A DNA stretch of 37,474 nucleotides from an uncultured Bacteroidota bacterium (GTDB lineage Bacteria > Bacteroidota > Bacteroidia > Flavobacteriales > Flavobacteriaceae). Below the pieces are notes generated by a model. It searched no databases. It was not told where the DNA came from and saw only the letters and a list, made by a program, of their open reading frames with translations. The stretch is taken from assembly GCA_903889745.1 (NCBI GenBank), contig CAISYO010000204.1, positions 1 to 37,474 on the forward strand, in the 5' to 3' direction. This document shows, one piece after another, positions 25,049 through 33,734 of the stretch. Numbering within the stretch: position 1 is the first letter of the stretch; each line of letters begins with the position of its first letter. Position numbers and translations under genes: made by a program.

Positions 25049-27073
25049 ATGATGTTTAAAAATATTCTAGTATTATTTTCTCTTATATTTTTCAATATAA
25101 CCTTTTCACAAGTGTTCATCAATGAGATCGATGCTGATAATCCGGGTAGCGATGTAAGGGAATTTGTAGAGTTGAAATCGAGTACTCCAAATTTTTCATT
25201 AAATGGTTATGTACTTGTTTTTTTTAATGAATCAAATACAGCAAGCTATTATGCTTATGATTTAGATGGATTTGTTACTGATGCAAATGGTATTGCACAT
25301 TTTGGGAATATTTTAGTTTCACCATCACCTATTGGAACTATTCCTAACAATAAAATGCAAAACGGACCCGATGTCGTTGCATTGTATCTTGGTAACGCAA
25401 CTGATTTTCCAAACACCACATCAACTGGGACTACTGCTACAACTACAAATTTAATAGATGCAATTGCTTATTCAAACAGTAATACTACCGTAGCCACAAA
25501 TTTAATGGCAATTTTAAACCTTACGGTAAGTACGGCAGATATTGAAACAACCAATTCCGTCTCAAAGTCAATTCAGCGTAAAAATGATGGTACATATGAA
25601 GTAAAACCACCAACACCTGGCGTTAATAATGATGGAAGTGGAGTTGCTCTTAATTATTTGTCAACTTCAATGATTGCTGATAATTTTAATGAAGGACAAC
25701 AATTTACAATACAATTCTCAACATCAGTACCAGTTCCTTCTAATCTTGTTTTTACATTTACTTTACAAGAAGGAAATTTTACAATCGCAGATTATTCTGG
25801 TGCTGATGTTAATGCTACCACAGGAGTTTTAACAGTTACTATTTTAGCTGGAACTTCCTCTGCTTCAACAATTATAAACTTAACGGATGATACTATTTAT
25901 GAAGGTGATGAAGAAACACATCTTGTTTTATCTACTTTGCCATCGGGTTATGTAAAAAACAATGATAATATTTATATACGAATTTATGATAATGATTTTA
26001 TCGTTCAAAATTTTGGCACTCCATTAAATCCCACATATAGCAATGTTTCGCCTACCATTCCTTCTGGTTATTATGATTCTTTGGAAGGATTATCAGGTGT
26101 CGCATTAAAACAAGCAGTTCAAGACATTATTGCAAATCCTTCGGTAGTTAGGTTACATAGTTATGCCGATATTTGGGATATTATTCGAACTGCAGATCAA
26201 AATCCAGCCAATTCAAACCAAGTTTGGTGTATGTATGTTGAATCGCCAATGGCTAAGATAGACCAACAAGTGGGGAGTAGTATTGTAGGAAAATGGAATC
26301 GTGAACATATTTTTTCTCAGTCAAGAGGTGGTTTTGAAGTATCCAGCAATGATTCAGCTGATGGTATTAATTTTTGGAGTTCAACAAGCGCAGCTTCGGT
26401 TGTAGATGGTGTTTCAGATGCACATCATATTCGGGTTGAAAATGGCCAAGAAAATTCTTCGCGAAATAATAAAAATTTCGGTACAGTAACGTCGGCAACA
26501 GTTTACGCTGGACCTTCTAATACGCAAGGTTCATGGCGAGGAGATGTAGCACGATCATTGTTTTATATGGCAGTTCGTTACAATGGGTTGAATGTTGTGA
26601 ATGGTGATCCAAGTGAATACTTACCAAGTACAACAACTTCTTCAGGAAATATTGGTGATTTAGCAACTTTACTCAATTGGAATACAACAGATCCAAGAGA
26701 TGATTTTGAAATGAATCGAAATAATTACATTTATACTTGGCAAATGAATCGAAACCCATTTATTGATTATCCTCTTTTAGCGAATTATATTTTTGGAGCT
26801 AATTTTGGGCAACCTTGGTCAGCTAGCTTAACCACACAAAATCCCGTTCAAAATAAAATTGTAGTGTATCCAAATCCAGCTGAAGATTATTTAATTATAT
26901 CGGGATTAGAAGGTAATGCAATTGCCGAAATTTATACCCTTATAGGTCAGTTAATTCAGCGCATCGAATTTGAAAATGAAATAAAACTGAATTTAAATTG
27001 CAAAGCCGGAATGTATTTAGTTACAATAACTAATGGCTCACAAACAACCACAAAGAAAATAATTGTAAAGTAA
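25049..27073 (+). CDS. Secreted endonuclease I with N-terminal lamin-tail-like and Calx-beta-like domains and a type A T9SS C-terminal sorting domain
   Basis: Signal peptide; VFINEIDADNPGSDVREFVELKS (LTD-like); VGKWNREHIFSQSRGG and DAHHIR (endonuclease I family); C-terminal VVYPNPAEDYLIISG...GMYLVTITNGSQTTTKKIIVK (T9SS CTD). Confidence 0.88.
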   Translation: MMFKNILVLFSLIFFNITFSQVFINEIDADNPGSDVREFVELKSSTPNFSLNGYVLVFFNESNTASYYAYDLDGFVTDANGIAHFGNILVSPSPIGTIPNNKMQNGPDVVALYLGNATDFPNTTSTGTTATTTNLIDAIAYSNSNTTVATNLMAILNLTVSTADIETTNSVSKSIQRKNDGTYEVKPPTPGVNNDGSGVALNYLSTSMIADNFNEGQQFTIQFSTSVPVPSNLVFTFTLQEGNFTIADYSGADVNATTGVLTVTILAGTSSASTIINLTDDTIYEGDEETHLVLSTLPSGYVKNNDNIYIRIYDNDFIVQNFGTPLNPTYSNVSPTIPSGYYDSLEGLSGVALKQAVQDIIANPSVVRLHSYADIWDIIRTADQNPANSNQVWCMYVESPMAKIDQQVGSSIVGKWNREHIFSQSRGGFEVSSNDSADGINFWSSTSAASVVDGVSDAHHIRVENGQENSSRNNKNFGTVTSATVYAGPSNTQGSWRGDVARSLFYMAVRYNGLNVVNGDPSEYLPSTTTSSGNIGDLATLLNWNTTDPRDDFEMNRNNYIYTWQMNRNPFIDYPLLANYIFGANFGQPWSASLTTQNPVQNKIVVYPNPAEDYLIISGLEGNAIAEIYTLIGQLIQRIEFENEIKLNLNCKAGMYLVTITNGSQTTTKKIIVK

Positions 27074-27075
27074 AT

Positions 27076-27106
27076 AAAAAAGTCCTTCAATTTGAAGGAC
27101 TTTTTT
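27076..27106. terminator. Bidirectional intrinsic terminator
   Basis: AAAAAAGTCCTTCAA T TTGAAGGACTTTTTT: 15-bp complementary arms between convergent genes. Confidence 0.9.
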
Positions 27107-27107
27107 A

Positions 27108-27833
27108 TTAGAAATTAGGCGATAAATTATATTTTTTATAGAAGTTGTCTAACGCTTCTAATACTTCATCTTCTGTGTCAACCACTTTTATGAGGTTTAA
27201 ATCATCTGGATTTGCATTTTTCATTTTGTCAATCATAACCATTTTAATCCAATCTAATAAACCCGACCAAAATTCAGTTCCAACTAAAATAATGGGAAAT
27301 TTTCCAATTTTCTTTGTTTGAATTAAAGTTACGGCTTCAAATAATTCGTCTAAAGTTCCAAAACCTCCTGGCATTACTACAAAACCTTGTGAATATTTTA
27401 CAAACATGACTTTTCTTACAAAGAAGTAATCAAAATTTAAGTTTTTGTCTTTATCGATATACGGATTGAAGTGTTGCTCAAAAGGTAATTCAATATTTAG
27501 ACCAACCGATGTTCCACCACCATGATGTGCTCCTTTATTTCCAGCTTCCATAATACCAGGACCGCCGCCAGTAATTACACCATAACCTGCTTTACTAATT
27601 TTGTAAGCAATTTTTTCGGCTAATAAATAATATTTATCTTCTGGTTTTGTTCTTGCCGAACCAAAAATTGAGACACAAGGACCTATTCTTCCCATGGTTT
27701 CATAACCGTTCACAAACTCGGACATGATTTTAAAAATGGCCCAAGAATCGTTTGAGCGTATTTCGTTCCAAGTTTTTTGCTTAAATTTTGCTTGAATTCT
27801 ATGATCGTCGTTTTCGTATTGATCTGCTGCCAT
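27108..27833 (-). CDS. LOG-family / TIGR00730 Rossmann-fold nucleotide-binding protein
   Basis: VITGGGPGIMEAGNKGAHHGGG and MPGGFGTLDELFEAVTLIQTKKIG (PGGxGTxxE). Confidence 0.93.
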   Translation of the reverse strand: MAADQYENDDHRIQAKFKQKTWNEIRSNDSWAIFKIMSEFVNGYETMGRIGPCVSIFGSARTKPEDKYYLLAEKIAYKISKAGYGVITGGGPGIMEAGNKGAHHGGGTSVGLNIELPFEQHFNPYIDKDKNLNFDYFFVRKVMFVKYSQGFVVMPGGFGTLDELFEAVTLIQTKKIGKFPIILVGTEFWSGLLDWIKMVMIDKMKNANPDDLNLIKVVDTEDEVLEALDNFYKKYNLSPNF

Positions 27834-30783: not shown

Positions 30784-31746
30784 TTAAAGTAAACGCTTTC
30801 TTTGTCTATTATTGATGTAATCGTTGATGGCTTTTTTTGTGGTTACCCAATTTCTACCTTCTTTATAAGCATCAATTTTTCCTTGCCTTGCTAATAAACT
30901 AACATATTCTTGACTGTAAGGTGTATTAGGCTCACTAACAATGCTTGTAATCGATTGATAATCTTCATCTTCATCACTTGGAATAGAAGTTAAATATATA
31001 TTAACAGAACGCTCTAAAGCTTGGCACATTAATAACGTTAACTTTTGATAATTACCATTATTTGCTTGGTTTAAAGCGTCATAATATTTATTTCTATCAT
31101 TTTTTAAAATGATTGCTGGCGGAAATCCTTTTCGCATGAGTAATAAATTCATAGCTAAACGAAAGGTTCTTCCGTTTCCATCAAAAAAAGGATGAATCCA
31201 AACTAATTTATGATGAAATATTGTAGCCAACTCAATATCATTCAATTGCAATGGATTTTGATTTACAAATTGAATCAATTCATCTAATAAATCAGAAACT
31301 TTATTAGCATTTGGAGGAATAAAATTTGCACCAGTAATTCTTACACCAGCGTTTCTAATTCTTCCCGCATAATCATCTTCAATTGTTCTTAATACCAAAC
31401 CATGTAGCGACAAAATATCAATACTTCTAAGGATGTAATCATCATCAATAATTTGATACAAATAATTAATCGCATGCTCGTGATTTTTTGCTTCAAAATG
31501 CTCTCTTAATGATTTTCCTTTTACTGTGATACCATCTTGAAGCACCATTTGTGTTTCTCGAAGTGAAAGCGTGTTACCTTCAATACTGTTAGAATTATAG
31601 GTCCATTCAATTGAAAGTGATTCTTTAATTTTTGAAATAGCCGAATAGGGAAGTGGTCTGTTTTGATTGAGCACAGCTAGTTTATCATACAATCTTTCGA
31701 ATGTTGATTGAAATTCTTTTTGATATGATAGATCAATATTCCACAT
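30784..31746 (-). CDS. Fic-family (FIC-domain) protein, class II N-terminal inhibitory motif, C-terminal excisionase/HTH_17-like DNA-binding domain
   Basis: HPFFDGNGRTFR (HxFx(D/E)GNGRxxR), SNSIEGN inhibitory-helix motif, C-terminal YSQEYVSLLARQGKIDAYKEGRNWVTTKKAINDYI. Confidence 0.93.
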   Translation of the reverse strand: MWNIDLSYQKEFQSTFERLYDKLAVLNQNRPLPYSAISKIKESLSIEWTYNSNSIEGNTLSLRETQMVLQDGITVKGKSLREHFEAKNHEHAINYLYQIIDDDYILRSIDILSLHGLVLRTIEDDYAGRIRNAGVRITGANFIPPNANKVSDLLDELIQFVNQNPLQLNDIELATIFHHKLVWIHPFFDGNGRTFRLAMNLLLMRKGFPPAIILKNDRNKYYDALNQANNGNYQKLTLLMCQALERSVNIYLTSIPSDEDEDYQSITSIVSEPNTPYSQEYVSLLARQGKIDAYKEGRNWVTTKKAINDYINNRQRKRLL

Positions 31747-31765
31747 GGTTTTTATATTTCAACCA

Positions 31766-31773
31766 CAAAAGTA
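31766..31773 (-). promoter_or_regulatory. Candidate -7 element TACTTTTG for the fic gene
   Basis: Minus-strand TACTTTTG (plus CAAAAGTA) matches TAnnTTTG, 19 bp upstream of the ATG and directly abutting the inverted repeat. Confidence 0.6.
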
Positions 31774-31815
31774 TTAATATCGGATAAAATAAAAAAATAT
31801 TTTATCCGATATTAA
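31774..31815. promoter_or_regulatory. Perfect 18-bp inverted repeat, candidate operator of the fic gene
   Basis: TTAATATCGGATAAAATA (31774-31791) - AAAAAA - TATTTTATCCGATATTAA (31798-31815), zero mismatches. Confidence 0.8.
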
Positions 31816-31837
31816 AATTTTTGACAATTGATTTTTG

Positions 31838-31916: not shown

Positions 31917-33734
31917 TTACTCAATTATCATAGATTTCAAGCGGAGTCTGTATTTTTCTAACACGAGATGTTTGTGGATAAAACCAAGAAAGATCCCATC
32001 TTTTAAAACAGGGAGGACTTTACAATCAGAAGTGTCAAATTTATCCATTATGGTTTCTAAGGTTTCATCGTAGAAAATGATCTCTTTAGGAGGTTGCATG
32101 ATTTCCTCGACAGCGGTATATTTAACTTTAAATGCTGAAAATACAATTGGACGAATGTCATCCAATACAATTAATCCAATTAAATGATTGTCATTGTCTA
32201 AAACAGGAAAGAAATGTTCGTCTGATTCTTGAATTTTTTGCACCAATTCCTCTAAGCTATTACTCAATGAAATCGGTTGATAATCAGTTTGAATTAATTT
32301 TGAAACGTCAATAGAATTAAGAATATTGGTGTCTCTATTATCGGTGAAAACTTCGCCCTTATCGGCTAAATTTTTGATATCAAAAGAATAGGGTTCAAAA
32401 CGTTTAGAAATAGCAAAACTTACCGAAGATACAATCATTAATGGAACCATTAAATTATATCCTCCTGTAATCTCTGCAATAAGGAAAATAGCTGTTAATG
32501 GTGCATGAAACAATCCGCTTAGTATTCCCGCCATTCCTACAAGCGTAAAGTTTCCAACAGGTAATTTTGATAGTCCTAAAATATTAACGAAATAAGCCAC
32601 ACAAAACCCTAAATAAGATCCTACAAATAAAGAAGGGGCAAAATTTCCGCCATTACCTCCAGCACCAAGCGTAAAACTAGTTGCATATACTTTAATTAGC
32701 ATCGTTGCGCTTACAAACAGTAATAGAATCCATTTAGAATCTTTAAAAGTTTCAAAAAAAGTATTTTGCACTAACTTTTCAGGATTATTATCTGCTAATA
32801 GTTTAATACTTTCATACCCTTCACCAAATAAGGATGGAAAAAAGAAGATTAATATCCCAAGAATTCCAGCCCCAAAGAATGCTTTGTTAATGTAATTGAA
32901 TTTTAATTTGGAAAAATAATGTTCAATTTTCCTGAAAGTTCGTGCATAATTAATGGAAACAAAACCGCTTAAAATCCCTAAAACAACATAATAGGGTAAA
33001 TTATGAAAATCAAAAAATTGTACTTTTTTAAAGGAAAATAAAACATCTTCATTTAGCATTATTGTTGAAACTAATGCTCCAGTGGCAGCACTAATCATTA
33101 TTGGAATGAAGGCCGTAATACTAATTTCGGTTAAAACAACTTCTATTGCAAATAATACGCCGGCAATTGGAGCGTTAAAAGCCGCACTTATTCCGGCTGC
33201 AACACCACATGCTAATAGTAAGGTTCGGTCTTTATAGCTAAGTCTGTAATTTTGCGCATAATTACTACCAAAGGCCGCTCCTGTAATGGTAATAGGTGAT
33301 TCTAATCCGGCACTTCCACCCATGCCTACAGTAAACGAACTTGTAATTATTTGTGCAAACATTTGTTTTCGAGGCATAATACCACGTTTTTTTGCAACAG
33401 CATACATGATTTGAGCTGTACCTTTTTCAATGGAACCATCAAGCACTTTTTTAATGATAATTACTGTAATTATAATTCCAATAACAGGTAAAGTACTGTT
33501 ACTAAAAGGTAGGTGAAAAATTTCATCAAGATTTTGAGACGATTTAAAAACCCAATGGGCAAAAGTTTTTAATACAATTACTGCAAGTGCAGAGGATATT
33601 CCTACTAACACACAAGACAAATAAATAAATTGTCGAGGTGTTAACATTGCTTTTAATAAAAAAATAAAACCCTCTAACCGTCTAAAATTCTTATATAGTA
33701 TGGTTTTAAAGTAATTTCTTTTTTTTGATGACAT
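31917..33734 (-). CDS. ClC-family chloride channel/antiporter with C-terminal CBS domain pair
   Basis: GMGGSAGLESPITITGAAFGS, GGNGGNFAPSLFVG, C-terminal CBS domains (FFPVLDNDNHLIGLIVLDDIR; VLPVLKDGIFLGFI). Confidence 0.93.
   Translation of the reverse strand: MSSKKRNYFKTILYKNFRRLEGFIFLLKAMLTPRQFIYLSCVLVGISSALAVIVLKTFAHWVFKSSQNLDEIFHLPFSNSTLPVIGIIITVIIIKKVLDGSIEKGTAQIMYAVAKKRGIMPRKQMFAQIITSSFTVGMGGSAGLESPITITGAAFGSNYAQNYRLSYKDRTLLLACGVAAGISAAFNAPIAGVLFAIEVVLTEISITAFIPIMISAATGALVSTIMLNEDVLFSFKKVQFFDFHNLPYYVVLGILSGFVSINYARTFRKIEHYFSKLKFNYINKAFFGAGILGILIFFFPSLFGEGYESIKLLADNNPEKLVQNTFFETFKDSKWILLLFVSATMLIKVYATSFTLGAGGNGGNFAPSLFVGSYLGFCVAYFVNILGLSKLPVGNFTLVGMAGILSGLFHAPLTAIFLIAEITGGYNLMVPLMIVSSVSFAISKRFEPYSFDIKNLADKGEVFTDNRDTNILNSIDVSKLIQTDYQPISLSNSLEELVQKIQESDEHFFPVLDNDNHLIGLIVLDDIRPIVFSAFKVKYTAVEEIMQPPKEIIFYDETLETIMDKFDTSDCKVLPVLKDGIFLGFIHKHLVLEKYRLRLKSMIIE

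Follow-up and report, generated by a model that had tools for sequence, protein, structure and literature searches.

The fic locus and its inverted repeat

The window analysed here, a stretch of 37,474 nucleotides from an uncultured Bacteroidota bacterium of the Flavobacteriaceae, carries on its minus strand a fic gene (30784-31746) encoding a 320-residue Fic AMP-transferase with a C-terminal HTH_17-like domain. The Pfam Fic profile matches the window protein with E=1.3e-18. The catalytic motif HPFFDGNGRTFR (residues 185-196; 31159-31194, minus), which satisfies HxFx(D/E)GNGRxxR, is near-invariant in the family alignment, and the N-terminal inhibitory motif SNSIEG (residues 52-57; 31576-31593, minus), which satisfies (S/T)xxxE(G/N), is conserved in the same alignment; since both are present in full, the fic product is a class II Fic protein. 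The HTH_17-like domain, the proposed reader of the operator described below, covers residues about 276-314 (30805-30921, minus). HTH_17 matches the C-terminus (PYSQEYVSLLARQGKIDAYKEGRNWVTTKKAINDYI...) in 33 of 34 family members, with a best E of 5.5e-6, and in the window copy taken alone it scores under Pfam's cut-off. The AlphaFold model of Fic reached a mean pLDDT of only 57.7, with PDB matches recovering Fic cores only, and because of this poor quality the evidence for the HTH does not include the structure model. A second Fic paralogue with 38% identity is encoded in the source genome (G000:C55:6497-7258, L019); its match ends before the HTH and it has no such operator. A scan of viral contigs confirmed no relative, and phage and plasmid Fics are distant.

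Upstream of fic, and outside the operator, lies clc (31917-33734, minus), a member of the chloride channel family with a CBS-like C-terminus. Between both genes a perfect inverted repeat was found, in which the arm TTAATATCGGATAAAATA (31774-31791) is followed by the loop AAAAAA and by its exact complement (31798-31815), ending 27 bp upstream of fic. Thus, the 18-bp palindrome with a 6-nt spacer claimed by the sequence-only reading, an earlier annotation made from the letters of the window, is present as described. When two mismatches per arm were allowed, the arms grew to 26 nt (31766-31791 and 31798-31823) with 92% complementarity. The repeat reached an inverted-repeat score of 19.8, against a maximum of 13.0 among 200 dinucleotide shuffles of the 130-bp upstream region. 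Among inverted repeats whose arms reach 14 bp and whose loop does not exceed 10, the window holds just one other, near 27073. This other element (27073-27110) is an ordinary terminator-like stem-loop (AAAAAAGTCCTTCAATTTGAAGGACTTTTTT) flanked by convergent genes.

Promoter elements interleaved with the repeat

Read along the minus strand, the repeat is directly followed by the box TACTTTTG (31773-31766), which fits TAnnTTTG as had been claimed, then by 19 nt and by the fic ATG (31746). TAnnTTTG was found near the start, just downstream of the operator, in 80/80 orthologues. With the -7 box at positions -12 to -5 (PMC9723704), transcription is predicted to start near 31761, which would place the operator (31774-31815, minus) at about -54 to -13. 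Additionally, a TTTG upstream of the box was observed at 20 nt in 19 orthologues and at 19 nt in one, while no orthologue had it at any other distance between 10 and 33 nt; the window reads TTTT at the -33 position. On these sequence grounds, the fic promoter is predicted to be of the Bacteroidota sigma-A type, with its -33 element inside the operator spacer. The ATG follows the -7 box by 7 nt in 59/80 orthologues (L020-L099), so that their fic mRNA would be nearly leaderless; the gap is longer in the window, at 19 nt.

Conservation of the site among fic orthologues

The upstream regions of 80 fic orthologues with 75-98% identity, drawn from the genome_contigs collection and nearly all from Flavobacterium, were compared. 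A site was defined by agreement with TTAATATCGGATA-N-TATCCGATATTAA at 20 or more of 26 positions in the 160 bp before the start. Such a site was present upstream of 80/80 orthologues, where its absence would have spoken against an operator, and only one site of equal score occurred outside fic promoters in 538 kb of flanking locus DNA, so that the expected confinement to fic promoters was borne out. At 21/26 or more, 77/80 orthologues remained positive and no site was found elsewhere in the 538 kb. The element conserved upstream of all 80 is TTAATATCGGATA-N16-TATCCGATATTAA, with a spacer of 16 bp in nearly all orthologues and 15 bp in a few. Among 77 aligned sites, ATCGG is invariant in the promoter-distal half-site, whose core TATCGGATA (31803-31811, minus) spans positions of about -50 to -42 relative to the predicted start, and CCGATA is nearly invariant in the promoter-proximal one, whose core TATCCGATA (31778-31786, minus) lies at about -25 to -17.

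The 16 spacer positions, on the other hand, are A/T-rich and unpaired, since their complementarity equals that of shuffled partners and is even lower at the centre. The inner AAATA/TATTT pairing of the arms is specific to the window's lineage. Therefore, the innermost 5 bp of the window arms are part of the spacer, and that the hairpin is perfect in the window is a matter of local chance. The conserved element differs from the 18-bp palindrome in having arms of 13 bp and a spacer of 16 bp. Because neither the inner 5 bp of each arm nor the loop is conserved, the element is, to judge from the alignment, a pair of half-sites in DNA, hence an operator rather than a hairpin formed in RNA. Orthologues with only 57-71% identity, belonging to other genera and families, also retain both the C-terminus and the site (L014, L156 and L157).

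Distribution across Flavobacterium genomes

A strict motif, TATCGGATA-N13..18-TATCCGATA, was searched in 200 genomes of the genus Flavobacterium and was found in 32, whereas a control motif read backwards was found in one. A Fic protein search of the same set detected fic in 52 genomes, and all 32 genomes with the strict motif carry it, which corresponds to 32/52 fic genomes versus 0/148 fic-less genomes (Fisher p=1e-23, with the relatedness of the genomes ignored). The 20 fic genomes in which the strict motif was missing can be compared with a separate set, that of the 80 orthologues, where such cases have degenerate sites. Out of 34 strict sites, 32 precede fic by 20-31 bp, and the two remaining ones are a second operator copy (G372) and one unlinked site (G428). 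A wide regulon was rejected, as just these 2/34 sites are not directly at fic. A dispersed genomic repeat was also rejected, considering that, with no more than one mismatch allowed, the home genome contains few half-site matches, and those outside fic are single half-sites only. The sequence-only reading had named an unrelated repeat occurring throughout the genome as a finding against an operator; instead, the strict motif occurs only in fic genomes and almost only at fic.

Some individual loci deserve description. The operator occurs twice in G372 (L137, 2222-2255 and 2872-2905), once on each side of an inserted segment of about 0.6 kb that separates clc from fic. The unlinked site of G428 (L138, 3869-3910) is a perfect 26/26 operator remote from fic, flanked by an HxlR-type regulator gene on one side and by an NAD-dependent epimerase-like gene on the other; it could represent another target or what is left of a fic copy since lost. 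In G391 (L140, about 1300-1720), fic is interrupted by an insertion-sequence-like transposase gene, and its 5' part and the operator are gone. The fic match of G350 (C36:59543-60196) stops at residue 218, the C-terminus being lost or frameshifted, with the operator intact, as if the loss were recent.

Association with the DNA-binding domain

The presence of the site follows that of the C-terminal domain. None of 29 Fic homologues whose match ends before the HTH, which comprise paralogues, proteins of other Bacteroidota and plasmid Fics of Bacillota and others, has such a site anywhere in its locus, and the operator was found in 11/12 HTH-bearing loci, the exception (L191) being an N-terminally incomplete fragment. 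A Chloroflexota plasmid (NZ_CP128402.1, L158) encodes a full-length HTH-bearing Fic homologue with 42% identity, and a palindrome differing from the Flavobacterium operator, AGATAATTACTACGAAT-N16-ATTCGTGGTAATTATCT, lies 18 bp upstream of its ATG (p=0.005). The same test applied to five HTH-less plasmid Fics found no palindrome. Although this is one distant case, such a pattern is expected if every Fic-HTH protein reads its own half-site. This plasmid palindrome, AGATAATTAC...GTAATTATCT at about 68-18 bp upstream of the Fic ATG, begins with AGATAAT, which is similar to the CccR half-site AGATAATCAT.

Proposed autorepression and alternative explanations

The palindrome is very probably the operator of the fic promoter, to which a Fic dimer binds by its C-terminal HTH_17-like domain, repressing its own gene. 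The sequence comparisons show the site, its conservation, its restriction to fic, its dependence on an HTH-bearing Fic and the promoter elements within it, whereas the identity of Fic as the bound protein, its dimeric state on the DNA and the repressive effect are inferred. In the proposed mechanism, the dimer would use this domain to contact the two inverted half-sites TTAATATCGG...CCGATATTAA (13-bp arms, 16-bp spacer) and would thereby cover the -33 to -7 region, blocking RNA polymerase, and the resulting negative feedback would hold a self-inhibited AMP-transferase at a low level. This model was favoured because the 15-16 bp spacing is fixed and ATCGG invariant across the 80 orthologues while the spacer varies, because the strict motif is restricted to fic genomes and placed almost always just before fic, and because the HTH-less homologues lack the site that nearly all HTH-bearing loci possess. 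It was also favoured because the site is kept in other families, because the HTH-bearing plasmid homologue has its own palindrome at the same place, because HTH_17 is found in almost every family member, because promoter elements and operator are interleaved and because CccR provides a proven precedent (PMC9755527). Against it stand the score of the window HTH under Pfam's cut-off, the poor structure model and the one unlinked strict site in G428.

The site could alternatively be read by another protein, a transcription factor whose gene lies elsewhere in the genome, considering that an operator by itself does not identify the protein bound to it. However, a separate regulator would not require the motif to be missing from each of the 148 fic-less genomes and very seldom found away from fic; no linked regulator gene is common to the loci, where even clc is not always adjacent; and Fic carries an HTH of its own, while HTH-less Fics are devoid of the site. 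A separate reader is therefore improbable. Whichever factor occupies the site, Fic or another, it might activate the promoter instead of repressing it, since an activator could be accommodated at the distal half-site (about -50 to -42). However, the proximal half-site falls between the -33 element and the -7 box, where bound proteins normally block the polymerase, the -7 box agrees well with the consensus, and CccR, which follows the same logic, represses (PMC9755527), making activation very improbable.

A role at the clc end, as a transcription terminator or as a hairpin in the RNA, would agree with the window copy, a perfect stem-loop that was scored as terminator-like on both strands in a mechanical scan, with short T runs 3' on each strand, and with the position of clc upstream of fic in 69/90 loci. 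However, no stem is conserved, the spacer pairing being that expected by shuffling; clc is present in 195/200 genomes, whereas the motif tracks fic only; and fic loci away from clc retain the site (e.g., L028, L044, L045, L083, L156 and L157). A Rho-independent terminator or hairpin of clc was rejected on account of the unconserved pairing and of the absence of the motif from clc-bearing fic-less genomes, and this explanation is hardly credible. The sequence-only reading had preferred an operator over a terminator, invoking the lack of a T-tract; the preference is sustained by the unconserved spacer pairing and by a motif that tracks fic, whereas the T-tract argument is not quite accurate, given the short T runs on both strands.

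Beyond autorepression, the operator may also be an allosteric ligand, with promoter-bound Fic held as a non-AMPylating (or deAMPylating) dimer and with loss of operator occupancy, for instance during phage infection, both freeing the enzyme and inducing more of it. This extension is rather unlikely; if true, it would constitute an antitoxin-free, DNA-tethered defence switch.

Novelty and implications

In the literature searched, whose coverage leaves out most subscription journals, we found neither the operator nor a report of its conservation across the lineage, nor any paper on Fic promoters in Flavobacterium; searches with the half-site letters gave, among the matches listed, apparent chance sequence matches. 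The operator and its spread through Flavobacterium thus appear to be undescribed. A DNA-binding domain is present in many bacterial Fic enzymes and, in the literature found, a specific DNA target has been shown for CccR only. A candidate target of 42 bp, conserved in no fewer than 80 orthologues, makes it possible to test autorepression in Bacteroidota, as well as cognate, instead of random, DNA as a switch of Fic catalysis. Additionally, comparing the presence of the HTH with that of a palindrome may predict the operators of other Fic-HTH proteins.

Comparison with known Fic systems

The nearest solved Fic cores, by both sequence and fold, are those of FICD/HYPE and Fic-1 (PDB 4u04, 5jj6), which differ from the window protein in being TPR-bearing animal proteins without an HTH. 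SoFic, of the Sofic anti-phage defence (PMC12249575; PDB 3eqx), is likewise a single-protein class II Fic with a C-terminal domain, and the PADLOC SoFic profile matches the window Fic over its whole length (E=3.1e-33). Assignment to the SoFic equivalog (NCBI NF046030) was rejected, the score being 40.5 bits against a curated cut-off of 550. DNA binding by SoFic is undemonstrated according to PMC10628234.

CbFic2 of Coxiella burnetii (PDB 8cil) is another class II Fic with a C-terminal HTH, by which it binds DNA, and it was demonstrated that DNA drives its switch to a deAMPylating dimer (PMC10628234), so that DNA binding leads to CbFic2 dimerisation and altered activity. Only random DNA was used in that study, whose authors state that the specific binding sequence is missing (PMC10628234). 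CbFic2 differs from the window Fic in its HTH, which is of the DeoR-like/winged type, and in acting on host histones.

The closest parallel is offered by CccR of Yersinia pseudotuberculosis (PDB 7cb8), a Fic protein with a C-terminal HTH that represses its own gene at AGATAATCAT-N26-ATGATAATCT, as supported by footprint, EMSA, ITC and reporter data (PMC9755527). Both systems share a self-inhibited Fic, a C-terminal HTH, a wide-spaced inverted repeat over the own promoter and, in the proposed model, single-gene autoregulation; for the window fic, the conserved inverted repeat overlaps its own promoter and the C-terminal HTH is found in the family, being sub-threshold in the window copy. However, the CccR half-site AGATAATCAT and its 26-bp spacer contrast with TTAATATCGGATA and the 16-bp spacer of the window fic, the similarity to 7cb8 extends over the Fic core and does not include the HTH, and CccR is a T6SS effector, nothing of that kind having been seen for the window Fic. 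The CccR orthologue assignment was rejected because of the different half-site and spacer and of the homology confined to the core. By analogy, the window fic most likely works like a CccR-type autoregulated Fic-HTH system without being a CccR orthologue.
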